From contig DASVBS010000065.1 of assembly GCA_036375715.1 (NCBI GenBank), positions 62,001 through 126,000 on the forward strand: 64,000 bases of DNA, read 5' to 3'. This DNA is from Longimicrobiaceae bacterium (GTDB lineage Bacteria; Gemmatimonadota; Gemmatimonadetes; Longimicrobiales; Longimicrobiaceae). The translations under genes and the position numbers were made by a program. Positions 42,068 through 47,385 of this stretch are shown here, in pieces (positions within the stretch are counted from its first letter, which is position 1; the number at the start of each line of letters is the position of its first letter). Under the pieces are notes generated by a model that was given only the letters and a program-made list of their open reading frames with translations, was not told the origin of the DNA and did not search any database.

Positions 42068-43129
42068 TCAAAGCAGGTCCCGGGCCGCGGAGACAGGACC
42101 CGACCTTAGACCACCGAGGAGCGCAGAAGGGAGAATCGACGGCCGCGCCTGAATCCGGAAGAAGCCGCGCTTTGCAGTTGCCGCCGCCCGCAGCGGCTCG
42201 AGCGCCTCACCCGCCTCGACGGCCAGATCGGCTTCGACAATCTGCGCCCCCGAGGCGATGGCACGCCGGTAGCCGGCGACAAAGCCGTCACGATCGATCT
42301 TCCCCGCCAGGTACGCACGGTCGACCGTGCGTGAGGTGCCGAGCACGCCGAGCGCGCCTCTGGCCGCAAGCCGCTGGAAGATATCGGGCTCGGACGGCTC
42401 GGTATGCGTCACGAAGCCCACCACGTTCCGCCACGGCACCCCGGTGGCCTCGAACCGTTCGACCGCTGCTGCGTCCGGCAGGAAGACCTGCATCAGGATG
42501 TCGGGGTCAAACTCGTACAGGCGCCGAGCGTCGTCGAAACTGTAGGCCATGACGATCGCCCACGCGTGCGCCTGCTGGCGCTGCACGGCGCGGGCACGCT
42601 CGAGGATGTCGACGCCCTTGTCGTCGAGCAGCAGCACGGTCCGCCCCTTCGCCCACGCGAGCGCCTCATCGAGCGTGGGAATGTGGTACGGCGTGACGGT
42701 GCCATCAGGATCCTTGAGCCGTAGTTGCTGGAGCTCCGCCCACGTGTGGTCAGCCACGCGGCCGTGCCCCGTACTCGTGCGCTCGAGCGTCGGATCGTGA
42801 AAGAGCACGAGCACGCCGTCACGCGTCCACCGCGGATCGACCTCTAGCGCCGCCCACGTGTGTCTGAGCGTATTCTCGAACGTTTCCAGCGCGTTCTCCG
42901 GAAAGCCCGGCCGAGCACCGCCGCGATGTGCGTGCAGCAGCGGTGGACCGTCGGGCTGGTAGCGATACAGCGCCCGCAGGTCGTCGACGGTTTCAAGCGC
43001 GAAAACGTGTAGATCGACCGCACGCACCTGCGCGGTCCTGGGGTGAGCCGCCGTCAGCGCCGCCGCGAGGACGGCCAGGGCCGCGGCCGCTGCCGCGGCG
43101 GACAGGACGACGAACGTCGTGCGCCTCAT
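42068..43129 (-). CDS. Exported glycerophosphodiester phosphodiesterase
   Basis: The 353-residue enzyme hydrolyses glycerophosphodiesters to an alcohol and glycerol-3-phosphate. An N-terminal hydrophobic segment (FVVLSAAAAAAALAVLAAALTAA) is a signal peptide or anchor. The catalytic and metal-binding motifs of the GDPD TIM barrel are present: HAHRGGARPGFPENALETF and LEVDPRWTRDGVLVLFHDPTL, the usual E-x-D...HD set, then LLLDDKG. It lies 11 bases after the sulfatase gene in the same direction, so both may serve scavenging of phosphate and sulfate esters in the periplasm. No phosphate transporter is nearby. Confidence 0.9.
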   Translation of the reverse strand: MRRTTFVVLSAAAAAAALAVLAAALTAAHPRTAQVRAVDLHVFALETVDDLRALYRYQPDGPPLLHAHRGGARPGFPENALETFENTLRHTWAALEVDPRWTRDGVLVLFHDPTLERTSTGHGRVADHTWAELQQLRLKDPDGTVTPYHIPTLDEALAWAKGRTVLLLDDKGVDILERARAVQRQQAHAWAIVMAYSFDDARRLYEFDPDILMQVFLPDAAAVERFEATGVPWRNVVGFVTHTEPSEPDIFQRLAARGALGVLGTSRTVDRAYLAGKIDRDGFVAGYRRAIASGAQIVEADLAVEAGEALEPLRAAATAKRGFFRIQARPSILPSALLGGLRSGPVSAARDLL

Positions 43130-43139
43130 GGCCGTCCCC

Positions 43140-44648
43140 TCAGCGGTACATACGCCCTTCGAGCCGGGGCGGTTCGTCCTGCGGAGGTGGCTCGACGTGT
43201 GCCTCGCGCATCCACGCCTCGATCTGCGCGACGACGTCCGGATGATCGGCGGCCACGTCGGTCGTTTCGCCTGGATCGCGTTCGATATCGTAGAGCTGCA
43301 GTGGCGCGCCGGGCCCCGGCCGGATCGCTTTCCATGGTCCGCTCCTCACGGCCTGCCGCAGCGTGGTTTCGGCAAGATACCGGACGCTGGTCCAGTCGAT
43401 ATCCGCGTCTTCCCAGTAGAGGTAGTCATGCGATTCGGGCGCGCGTCCGGCGGCTTCGGCACCAACTAGCACCGGAACGAGCGACAGCCCGTCAATGTTC
43501 GCCGGCACGTGTTCCGATGCGCCGGTAAGCTCGGCGATCGTCGGTAGCAGGTCCGGAAAATACGTCAGATGATCCGTCGTCGCGGGCTTGATCCGCCCCG
43601 GCCAGCGCACGATGAACGGCACGCGCAGGCCGCCCTCCCACAGCGTCGTCTTGCCGCCACGCAGGATCCCGTTCGTTTGCAGCGGCTCACGGTTGAGCGT
43701 CGTCAGGCCGCCGTTGTCGGAGGCAAACAGGATAATCGTGCGATCGGCAATGCCGAGCTCGTCGACGAGCGCCACGATCTCGCCGACGTGCCGGTCGACG
43801 ATCGACGTGAACGCCGCGGCGGCCTTCGCCTCGAGCGGCCAGGGGCGATCGACGTAAAGCTGCCAGGCCGGATCGTCTTCCGGCACCTCCCACCGCGAGT
43901 GCGGCGGTGTCCATGCGCCGTAGGCGAAGAACGGCCGGTCGCGGTGCGCGCGAATGAACTCCTTCATGCGCTCGACGATGAGCGCGTGGGCGAACTGATA
44001 GCGCTCCCCGGACGGCGACTGCGGCGGTATCGGGCCGACGCCACGCCCTTCGCCGAAGGAACCGTCGTAGAAGCCACGATTGGCCGGCAGCTCGACACGC
44101 TCACTGTTCCGGTACAGGAAGGCGGGGAAGTGCTCGTGCGCGTGAATCTGGTGGTAGAAGCCGAAAAACTCGTCGAATCCCTGCCGCTCGGGCACCCCCG
44201 GCGTACCGATCTCACCCAGGCCCCACTTTCCGAAACCTCCGGTGGCATAGCCTGCTGCCTTGAGAACCTCGGCCAGCGTGACATCCTCGTCGCGCAGCGA
44301 GACACCGCCCGTATTCGACCGCACCGGCGTGTGGCCCATGTGCAGGCCGGTCATCAGCGTGCTGCGCGACGGCCCGCAAACCGTGTTGCCGGCATACGCA
44401 CGGGTGAACCGCAGGCCTTCGGCCGCAAGCTGATCGAGCGACGGCGTCGAGATGGCGGTGCCCCCATACGCACCGAGATCGGCCGAACCGAGATCGTCGG
44501 CCAGGATGAGAATGATGTTGGGCGGCAGCGCTGCCTGGCGCAGCGCCTCCGGACGCGACTCCGACGAAAATCCGGAGCAGGCCGTAGTCGCCCCGGCGGT
44601 CAGGACCGCGGTAACGACGGACGCGAACAAGCGGCAGAATCGGGTCAC
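43140..44648 (-). CDS. Sulfatase (formylglycine type), lipoprotein
   Basis: The 502-residue enzyme hydrolyses a sulfate ester. The metal pair is in NIILILADDLGSADLG (Asp51, Asp52), the formylglycine motif CGPSR is at 91-95 (Cys91 oxidised by FGE or an anaerobic SME), and family features KWGLG and SDNGG follow. The N-terminus is a lipoprotein signal (MTRFCRLFASVV, lipobox TTAC, Cys24). Start is GTG 44648 with GGAGG 5 bases upstream; the longer open frame to 45191 is antisense to lon. The sulfated substrate is unknown. No formylglycine-generating enzyme gene is in the window. Confidence 0.93.
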   Translation of the reverse strand: MTRFCRLFASVVTAVLTAGATTACSGFSSESRPEALRQAALPPNIILILADDLGSADLGAYGGTAISTPSLDQLAAEGLRFTRAYAGNTVCGPSRSTLMTGLHMGHTPVRSNTGGVSLRDEDVTLAEVLKAAGYATGGFGKWGLGEIGTPGVPERQGFDEFFGFYHQIHAHEHFPAFLYRNSERVELPANRGFYDGSFGEGRGVGPIPPQSPSGERYQFAHALIVERMKEFIRAHRDRPFFAYGAWTPPHSRWEVPEDDPAWQLYVDRPWPLEAKAAAAFTSIVDRHVGEIVALVDELGIADRTIILFASDNGGLTTLNREPLQTNGILRGGKTTLWEGGLRVPFIVRWPGRIKPATTDHLTYFPDLLPTIAELTGASEHVPANIDGLSLVPVLVGAEAAGRAPESHDYLYWEDADIDWTSVRYLAETTLRQAVRSGPWKAIRPGPGAPLQLYDIERDPGETTDVAADHPDVVAQIEAWMREAHVEPPPQDEPPRLEGRMYR

Positions 44649-44871: not shown

Positions 44872-47385
44872 ATGCCGAAGAGCAAGAGGATCCATTTCGA
44901 CCCGATCGAATCCCTCCGATCCGCACTGCCGGACCGGATCCCAGTCATGCCGATCACCAGCACCGTGATCTTTCCTACCGGGGCGACCGGGCTGCAGGTC
45001 GGCTTCCCGCCGAACGTCGAAGTCCTCGGCCTCCACCCGGGCAAGTCGCTGGTCGTGGCGCTGGTCGTCACCGAGGAAGAGGAGGACGAGATCCCACCAG
45101 CCTCGCTGGAGAAGGTGGGGGTCATTGCCCGCGTGCTGAACCGCCTGAACCTGCCGGGCAACCTGGTCCAGGCGACACTCCAGGGCATCATTCGCGTCCA
45201 CCTGGAGAACGTGCGCTTCGAGAACGGCTACTACACGGCTTTTCCGCGGCTGGTGGAGGAAACGAGCATCCCCGAGGAGGAGGCGAAGAAGCGGATCGAG
45301 CGGATCCTCACCACGCTGGGCGGTATTGGCGCACGGGTGGAGCGACTTGCCGAAGTCCCCCGCATCCTGCGGCGCAACGCCAGCGACCCCGGCCGCTTCG
45401 CCGACCTGGTCGCGACCCTGGCGCACTTCAGCGTGGCCGACAAAGACCAGGTCCTCCAGCGGCTGGATGTGCGGGAGAGGCTGGACTACGTGGGAGAGGT
45501 GCTGGACCGCGAGTGGATGAAGGTCCAGAGTCGCGCCGAGAGCGCTGCGAAAGTCGACGGGGCAGAGACCGCAATGCCCCCGGGGAAGGGCCGCCCGGGT
45601 CCGCGCATGGCGGAGATCCGCAAGCAGATCTCCGCGCTTCAGGCAGAGCTCGGCGAGATCGATCCAGCCGAGAAGGACTCAGTCGAGCTCCTGCGCCGCA
45701 TCGACCGGGCGGGCCTCCCCTCCAACATCGCCTCCGTCGCTCGTCGAGAGGCCGAGCGGCTGCGCAATATCGCGCCGGGCTCCAGTGAGGCGATGGAGAT
45801 CCGAAACTATGTCGATGTGGTGCTGGACATTCCCTGGGAGCGACTGAGCGACCACGCCGAGATCGACCTGGAGGCCGTCCGCGAGGCGCTGGACGAGCGC
45901 CACCTGGGGCTCGAAGACGTGAAGCGTCGGATCCTGGAGGTGCTCTCGGTGGCGACCCTGCGCGGCAGCGTAGCCGGGCTGGTCCCCTGCATCGTCGGGC
46001 CGTACGGCGTGGGCAAGCGCACGCTGGCGGAGGCGGTGGCGCGCGGACTCAATCGACCTCTGGTCCGGGTTGATCTCGGCGGACGCGGCGAGAGTCAGTT
46101 GATCGGGATCCGCCGCTCACGCAGCGGCGCCCAACCCGGCAAGCTGATCTCGGCTTTTCGCGAGGCGGGCGTGGCCGATCCGGTCTACCTGCTCGAGGAG
46201 ATGGACGAGGTCGGGCTGGGAAACGTGGAGGGGGATCCGGTGGAGGCGTTGGAAGAGTTCCTCGATCCCGCCAATCGGGAAGGGTTCTTCGATCGCTACC
46301 TGGACCTCCCTTTCGACCTGACCAACACGATCTTCATCGCAACGGCCATCGATTTCTACCGGGTGCCCCGCAGCCTGCGCGACCACCTGATCGAGATCCG
46401 TATCGCCGGCTACACCCCCGAGGAGAAGGTCGAGATCGCCCGCAAGTGCCTCCTCCCCGCGCTCGTGGAAGAGCACGGCCTCACCGGCGAGCAGATCGAG
46501 GTGGATGAAGACACCCTGGTCTTCCTCACCCGCGGGTACGCGCGGGATGCCGGGCTCGGAAACCTTCGGCGCTCGCTCTCCGCGGTGCTCCGCTTCATCG
46601 CCCACCAGAAGGCGACCGGTGAGGCGACCCGCTGGACGCTCTCGCGCGACATGATCGAGGAGGTGCTGGGGCTTCCCCGCTATCTCCCGACCGAAGCCGA
46701 AAGCCGGCCAGAAATCGGCGTGGTGACCGGCCTCGCGTGGACCGCGGCGGGCGGTGAGCTGATGTTCATCGAGGCCCTGCGGATGCCCGGCACCGGCCGC
46801 CTCATCATCACCGGGCTGATCGGCGAGGTGATGCGGGAATCGGTAAACGCCGCCTATTCATACGTTCGCTCGCGGGCCGACCGGCTAGGAATCGCGCATT
46901 CGCTCTTTGGGGAGACCGACCTCCACATTCACTTTCCGGTGGGTGCCACCCCGAAGGACGGCCCGAGCGCGGGCGTCGCGGTCACCCTCGCCATCGCGTC
47001 GTCGCTGTCGGAGCGGCCTGTACGGCACGACATCGCGGTAACCGGAGAGGTCACCCTGCGCGGAAGGATCCTGGAGATCGGCGGGGTGAAGGAGAAGACG
47101 CTGGCCGCTCACCGGGCCGGCATCTACGACGTCGTGCTCCCGGCAGGCAACGAGCGGGACCTGCGGGACGTGCCGGAGGACGTGCGCGAGTCCATGCACT
47201 TCCACATGGTGGAGCACATGGACGAGGTCTTCGACCTGGCGCTCACCGCGAAAGAGCGCACACGGAGGCAGCGCCGGCGGACCCCTGCCAGCAGCGGCGG
47301 CCGCCGGGCCCGCGCGGCCGCCCGGGGGCGCGAGGAGGAGGAAGAGGACTCGAAGAGCTCCGAATCCCCGAACGACGACGCGTAA
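44872..47385 (+). CDS. Lon-family protease with degenerate ATPase module
   Basis: The 837-residue protein has the full Lon layout: an N-terminal LON substrate domain (residues 20-210), an AAA+ region (about 330-600) and a C-terminal Ser-Lys protease with Ser699 in KDGPSAGV and Lys740 in EIGGVKEKTL. The AAA+ core departs from every functional motif. Walker A reads GPYGVGKRT (376-384), with Arg for the Mg-binding Thr/Ser. Walker B is LLEEMDE (440-446) instead of LLDEID. The aromatic pore loop is replaced by RSRSG (415-419), sensor 1 Asn by Ile493, and the sensor 2 Arg by Gly. The protease site and oligomer frame look intact, so it may be an ATP-independent or regulated Lon paralogue. Start ATG 44872 is inferred; a TTG at 44803 is possible. 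Confidence 0.9.
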   Translation: MPKSKRIHFDPIESLRSALPDRIPVMPITSTVIFPTGATGLQVGFPPNVEVLGLHPGKSLVVALVVTEEEEDEIPPASLEKVGVIARVLNRLNLPGNLVQATLQGIIRVHLENVRFENGYYTAFPRLVEETSIPEEEAKKRIERILTTLGGIGARVERLAEVPRILRRNASDPGRFADLVATLAHFSVADKDQVLQRLDVRERLDYVGEVLDREWMKVQSRAESAAKVDGAETAMPPGKGRPGPRMAEIRKQISALQAELGEIDPAEKDSVELLRRIDRAGLPSNIASVARREAERLRNIAPGSSEAMEIRNYVDVVLDIPWERLSDHAEIDLEAVREALDERHLGLEDVKRRILEVLSVATLRGSVAGLVPCIVGPYGVGKRTLAEAVARGLNRPLVRVDLGGRGESQLIGIRRSRSGAQPGKLISAFREAGVADPVYLLEEMDEVGLGNVEGDPVEALEEFLDPANREGFFDRYLDLPFDLTNTIFIATAIDFYRVPRSLRDHLIEIRIAGYTPEEKVEIARKCLLPALVEEHGLTGEQIEVDEDTLVFLTRGYARDAGLGNLRRSLSAVLRFIAHQKATGEATRWTLSRDMIEEVLGLPRYLPTEAESRPEIGVVTGLAWTAAGGELMFIEALRMPGTGRLIITGLIGEVMRESVNAAYSYVRSRADRLGIAHSLFGETDLHIHFPVGATPKDGPSAGVAVTLAIASSLSERPVRHDIAVTGEVTLRGRILEIGGVKEKTLAAHRAGIYDVVLPAGNERDLRDVPEDVRESMHFHMVEHMDEVFDLALTAKERTRRQRRRTPASSGGRRARAAARGREEEEEDSKSSESPNDDA

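Follow-up and report, generated by a model that had tools for sequence, protein, structure and literature searches.

A full-length LonA-type protease lineage of Gemmatimonadota with a decayed ATPase and a conserved protease site

What remains of a Lon protease when the residues of its ATP-driven motor are gone? The gene P0001, located in the 64,000-nucleotide stretch of Longimicrobiaceae DNA analyzed here (the window), raises this question. Its reading frame starts with an ATG at position 44872, in register with the N-terminus of the family, and its stop codon ends at 47385. Orthologs are found in two Longimicrobium-type families of Gemmatimonadota, soil-type bacteria: that of the window (f1) and a sister family of the same order (f2). 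By Pfam, the encoded protein has the domain order of a full-length LonA (N-domain, AAA+, lid, protease), laid out as follows:

44872..47385, + strand: P0001, Lon paralog with a decayed ATPase, 837 aa (open frame, TIGR00763 match, orthologs in f1 and f2)
44938..45510, + strand: N-terminal substrate-binding domain, residues 23-213 (PF02190, LON_substr_bdg, E 3.7e-21; AlphaFold2 pLDDT ~90)
45511..45861, + strand: helical linker, residues 214-330 (helices in the AlphaFold2 model; the fastest-evolving part, with a decayed/canonical divergence ratio of 2.02)
45862..46641, + strand: degenerate AAA+ module, large domain 331-512 and lid 513-590 (PF00004, PF22667)
46642..47247, + strand: Lon protease domain, residues 591-792 (PF05362, Lon_C, E 8.6e-83)
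47257..47382, + strand: C-terminal tail, residues 796-837, basic then acidic, probably disordered (pLDDT <50)

With N-domain, AAA+ module and protease in a single chain, P0001 is a LonA by domain content. The Pfam boundaries of the AAA domain and Lon_lid are 373-504 and 533-584 (PF00004 and PF22667, which like PF02190 and PF05362 score above their cut-offs). A PDB sequence search identifies LonA enzymes as the nearest solved structures (E. coli 6u5z, 6e-154) and ranks LonA far above LonB and LonC. P0001 also passes TIGR00763 ("lon", the NCBI endopeptidase La equivalog), narrowly, with 615.6 bits against a cut-off of 608.05, and annotation pipelines will therefore label it an ATP-dependent Lon. 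An AlphaFold2 model from a 39-sequence alignment has a mean pLDDT of 85.3 and a pTM of 0.65; an earlier model was set aside for its poor protease domain, due to a shallow alignment. The AAA+ and protease regions of the model superpose with Z 34.5 on E. coli LonA (526 residues, 3.1 A) and with Z 35.2 on a chain of hexameric LonA (524 residues, 2.6 A), while the rmsd of full-length chains is large because the N-domain is freely placed. In the predicted structure, the LonA AAA+ fold is retained.

We compared the ATPase motifs of 24 decayed orthologs with those of 64 intact LonAs, using E. coli Lon as the numbering reference, where sensor 1 is N473, sensor 2 is R542 and the arginine finger is R484 (PMC9569914). 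The motifs of P0001 are:

45997..46020, + strand: Walker A GPYGVGKR, Lys382 kept, E. coli T363 replaced by Arg383
46105..46131, + strand: pore loop 1 GIRRSRSGA, E. coli Tyr398 replaced by Arg417
46183..46206, + strand: Walker B VYLLEEMD, E. coli Asp423 replaced by Glu442, catalytic Glu443 kept
46348..46350, + strand: sensor 1, Asn473 replaced by Ile493 (Asn kept in 2/24 orthologs)
46384..46386, + strand: arginine finger, Arg484 replaced by His505 (Arg in 0/24 orthologs)
46558..46560, + strand: sensor 2, Arg542 replaced by Gly563 (Arg in 0/24, Gly in 21/24 orthologs)

A preliminary description of this DNA had reported replacements in Walker A, Walker B, the pore loop, sensor 1 and sensor 2; alignment with E. 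coli Lon and more than 60 LonAs confirms all five and shows that the arginine finger is gone as well (R484 to H505), a change that had been overlooked. Judged on its residues, P0001 thus lacks the functional Walker A and B, sensors 1 and 2, arginine finger and aromatic pore loop 1 of a LonA. The Walker B Asp is absent from all 24 decayed orthologs and the catalytic Glu443 is present in 22 of them. In pore loop 1, 23 of the 24 carry Arg and none carries Tyr, compared to Tyr in 64/64 intact LonAs. Every decayed ortholog retains the Gly-Lys of Walker A. The following residue (T363) is Arg, Lys or Ala in 15/16 f1 sequences, and Ser/Thr in 6/8 f2 sequences and one f1 sequence; because Ser/Thr persists in these sequences when the other motor residues are gone, it was probably the last of the motor residues to go. 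Taken at the level of function, ATP-driven translocation has almost certainly been lost in the decayed Lon.

The protease active site is located at two positions:

46966..46968, + strand: catalytic Ser699 (PKDGPSAG), present in 23/23 orthologs
47095..47097, + strand: catalytic Lys742 (GGVKEK), aligned with E. coli K722, present in 23/23 orthologs

The separation of the dyad Ser699 and Lys742 (42 residues) is that of LonA, and Pro698 precedes the serine, also the LonA state; LonB and LonC have Asp instead of Pro at this position (PMC9569914). It had been claimed beforehand that the dyad and the Lon layout are retained, and the orthologs and Pfam domains agree. The dyad had been given as Ser699 and Lys740, of which the serine stands and the lysine does not: the KEK motif opens with Lys740, two residues ahead of the catalytic lysine, and intact LonAs can carry Arg or Asn at this position, whereas K742 is invariant.

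To compare constraint across domains, we defined invariant positions as those conserved in at least 95% of 65 intact LonAs. The decayed clade has lost 0/51 such positions in the protease and 17/92 in the AAA+ and lid (Fisher p = 0.0006), and 49 of the 51 protease positions are kept in at least 90% of decayed orthologs. The divergence of decayed relative to canonical Lon from the same genomes is 0.81 for the protease, 1.39 for the AAA+, 1.6 for the lid and 2.02 for the linker. Similarly, the decayed Lons of f1 have a higher mean pairwise identity in the protease (0.82) than in the AAA+ (0.70), and this order is reversed in every intact group (protease/AAA+ of 0.78/0.85 in f5, another family of the class, 0.70/0.81 for the second LonA of f3, the third family of the order, and 0.72/0.76 for canonical Lon). 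We consider it very likely that the decayed Lon is an active protease. The AAA+ region is not free to drift. dN/dS is below 1 for all domains in all pairs tested, and for the AAA+ it is 0.04-0.45 across seven decayed pairs (approximate values from a simple counting method); this region is therefore still constrained and the gene is no pseudogene. In addition, several positions are fixed or nearly fixed for a new residue (E. coli numbering): Y398 to R in 23/24, L441 to E in 23/24, N449 to R in 24/24 and E538 to D in 24/24. AAA+ changes fixed to a single new residue would suggest a new structural role, beyond mere neglect.

The origin of the lineage can be traced within the phylum. Among ~300 phylum genomes, the nearest relative outside the decayed clade is the third LonA of f5, which is ~47% identical and has the same pore loop 2 length, including a one-residue insertion common to the decayed clade. 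It differs in that all of its ATPase motifs are canonical (for example, L089-L093) and in its chromosomal place, beside apparent ffh, rpsP and rimM genes (identified by eye). In our trees, the decayed Lons (22 rows) are monophyletic, with the f5 group (11 rows) as sister and two intact proteins of family f6 next, and these groups together stand apart from canonical Lons and other LonA copies. The decayed clade has an SH-aLRT value of 100 in the larger tree, and in the smaller one its bootstrap and SH-aLRT values are both 100 (100/100); its grouping with the intact LonAs of f5 and f6 has support of 99-100 among tree rows without LonB and LonC. Because the sister clade f5, and then f6, keeps all motifs, we read the intact state as ancestral and the decay as derived, with the motor residues lost after the split from the f5 LonA. 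This decay probably occurred once. As a separate observation, LonA has expanded within Gemmatimonadota: many f5 genomes (for example, G122 and G123) contain three genes of the LonA type, and two are common in f3 genomes, with motifs intact where checked.

We find the decayed Lon in 17/21 genomes of f1, where 16 sequences span the whole AAA+ region and the 17th is a fragment at a contig end, and in 9/12 genomes of f2, two of them in pieces. Family f3 has solely intact Lons among the sequences checked. Four f1 and f2 genomes (G003, G023, G025, G035) seem to be without the gene; three of these are >90% complete and may represent losses. We scanned 84,980 named species genomes for two short clade-specific peptides, an approach that would miss distant look-alikes in other phyla, and identified 14 loci, labeled Gemmatimonadetes, Gemmatimonadota, Gemmatimonas or Longimicrobium with the exception of one metagenome-assembled genome (MAG) labeled Proteobacteria. 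The Lon of this MAG (L081; QGUN01000106.1) nests in the f2 group, and the MAG is probably mislabeled or mixed. A canonical Lon is also present in every genome of f1 and f2 with a decayed Lon, except one fragmented genome. In the genome of the window, a 4.37 Mb draft of 87 contigs, the canonical Lon (L033) has all motifs and is on another contig (C81). The canonical Lons of the order (L033, L034-L052, L071, L072) carry an acidic, often Ala/Glu-rich insert directly before Walker A; it is very variable, from ~15 to 120 residues, and there is none in E. coli Lon.

A motor-less Lon has a precedent in LonC. MtaLonC from Meiothermus taiwanensis has the Walker A sequence GPPSLGKHE, has lost its sensors and arginine finger, and shows no ATPase activity; it forms its hexamer in the absence of nucleotide and, with no need for ATP, breaks down unfolded substrates while leaving folded ones uncut (PMC3391209). 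Like P0001, LonC proteins (MtaLonC, Thermus TTC1975) have a degenerate AAA+ with Walker A altered after the Lys and the sensors and arginine finger lost, and are encoded in genomes that also have LonA (PMC3391209). They differ from P0001 in the Asp that precedes their catalytic Ser, in a helical hairpin extension, in the absence of a LonA N-domain and in two protease-domain inserts. One insert follows the helix of the catalytic Lys and the other is located in helix alpha5 (PMC3391209), and P0001 aligns with E. coli LonA without gaps across both places. LonC entries match P0001 over the protease domain only, with E of ~1e-6 to 1e-7 compared to 6e-154 for E. coli Lon. Degenerate AAA+ motifs are found in P0001 as in LonC, but we rejected LonC membership on three defining features: Pro698 rather than Asp, no inserts, and an N-domain (PF02190, 23-213). 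LonA itself (MEROPS S16 subfamily A; E. coli Lon, Bacillus LonA) shares with P0001 the domain order, PKDGPSAG, Ser-Lys spacing and fold, and differs in its intact motor residues and pore-loop Tyr, whereas the P0001 clade has lost 17 invariant AAA+/lid positions. LonBA (Bacillus subtilis LonB) and archaeal LonB share the protease fold but are membrane-linked, without the LonA N-domain, and have canonical ATPase motifs (PMC9569914). The preliminary description had suggested a Lon branch different from LonC that keeps the N-domain and works as a paralog alongside a canonical Lon; the features above, the single clade (100/100) and the genome search that identified L033, and its counterpart in nearly all carrier genomes, agree on each point. 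Searches of open-licence papers for a degenerate-ATPase LonA or for Lon in Gemmatimonadota returned nothing relevant except LonC, a weak sign of absence given this coverage. The motor-less LonA lineage is real and conserved, of an origin independent of LonC, and apparently undescribed.

Given the MtaLonC precedent and comparable losses in what is otherwise a LonA, we propose that the P0001 lineage is a passive, arginine-lined ring protease. Reading from sequence and from the analogy to LonC, we regard it as reasonably probable that these proteins are ATP-independent compartment proteases for unfolded proteins, LonC-like but reached independently from LonA. Since its split from the intact third LonA, the lineage has lost the pore-loop Tyr, which pulls substrate, and the residues that hydrolyze ATP and couple this hydrolysis: the Walker B Asp, the arginine finger, sensor 2 and, in nearly all members, sensor 1. 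It has retained the dyad, the protease invariants, the N-domain and the AAA+ fold. The AAA+ layer would then persist as a static ring, keeping the six protease domains assembled and providing a gated entry. Charged residues that are newly fixed, namely Arg417 at the pore and, within the AAA+ core, Glu446, Glu461, Arg469 and Arg475 (P0001 numbering), may replace the motor by a passive pore of positive charge and fixed subunit contacts. The N-domain could serve as a receptor that delivers unfolded or damaged chains, which would diffuse in and be cut without ATP or unfolding power, while the cell's canonical Lon would carry on the energy-driven work. With the same measure of confidence, we suggest that a LonA lineage was converted a single time to a fuel-free, N-domain-bearing protease in which a ring of pore arginines takes the place of the pulling Tyr, making it a second, independent ATP-independent Lon.

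The main uncertainty in this proposal is whether nucleotide still gates the decayed Lon, given the ATP need of LonA for peptide cleavage. Canonical LonA activity requires ATP and Mg, and E. coli LonA without ATP left the beta20 peptide uncleaved (PMC3391209). Because P0001 keeps a LonA-type active-site loop, it might be inactive without ligand. Some nucleotide binding may also persist, since the Walker A Gly-Lys is universal in the clade, Ser/Thr is present in most f2 sequences and the catalytic Glu is kept in 22/24. A protease that binds ATP or ADP through Lys382 to switch ring assembly or proteolysis, with no turnover, would fit these residues, and each MtaLonC hexamer binds six ATPgammaS molecules that it does not hydrolyze (PMC3391209). 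However, nearly all f1 sequences (15/16) have Arg, Lys or Ala at the Mg-binding Ser/Thr position, the nucleotide-reading sensor 1, sensor 2 and arginine finger are lost, and the peptidase rates of MtaLonC are similar with and without nucleotides (PMC3391209), so that we hold nucleotide gating to be rather unlikely.

The near-constant company of a canonical Lon, together with the retained AAA+ fold and its constraint, would also suit a regulatory subunit that joins the canonical Lon ring and tunes or poisons its motor. We find this improbable, as the arginine finger that serves the neighboring subunit is lost in 24/24, the linker and AAA+ diverge faster than those of the canonical copy, the two Lons are only ~36% identical, and a mere regulator would not need a strictly conserved protease site. 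Even less credible is a slow ATPase that uses unconventional residues: the Lys of Walker A and the catalytic Glu of Walker B are largely retained, but the Walker B Asp, arginine finger, sensor 2 and pore Tyr are absent in 24/24 and the sensor 1 Asn in 22/24. Finally, the draft state of the source assembly (87 contigs) might suggest a sequencing error, misassembly or decaying pseudogene, but there is practically no chance of this, given long open frames in ~20 other genomes and dN/dS below 1 throughout; losses common to 24 separately assembled orthologous sequences exclude chance or a sequencing error, and the orthologs exclude a single-genome artifact.

If the proposal of a passive ring protease is correct, the lineage would be a convergent second motor-less Lon, now with the LonA N-domain, in which the roles of the N-domain and the ring could be probed without ATP. 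The intact sister, the half-decayed f2 and the fully decayed f1 proteins would form a natural series of AAA+ motor loss with the protease under strong selection, where f5 displays the ancestral state and f2 includes members with an almost intact Walker A. The lineage is also an annotation trap, as standard models call it ATP-dependent.

The gene neighborhood gave no convincing functional partner, and none of the conserved neighbors accounts for the protease. A nucleotidyltransferase gene is divergent upstream of the decayed lon in 13/14 loci compared, with an M20 peptidase gene farther upstream in 11, and f1 loci have guaB and an enoyl-CoA hydratase gene downstream. A DUF1499 gene is close to the decayed lon in most f1 and some f2 genomes, lying upstream on the same strand in ten loci (L110-L118, L127); none was found in the window. 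The partly shared gene order across f1 and f2 supports vertical inheritance. A promoter scan upstream of P0001 returned no sigma-70-like site, a result of little weight at such G+C content. In the window P0001 stands alone, with a sulfatase and a GDPD-type gene divergent upstream and a dicarboxylate symporter gene convergent downstream. The sulfatase (43143-44645, - strand) has an apparent lipoprotein signal, TTACSG (identified by eye), and adjoins the GDPD-type phosphodiesterase gene (42071-43129).
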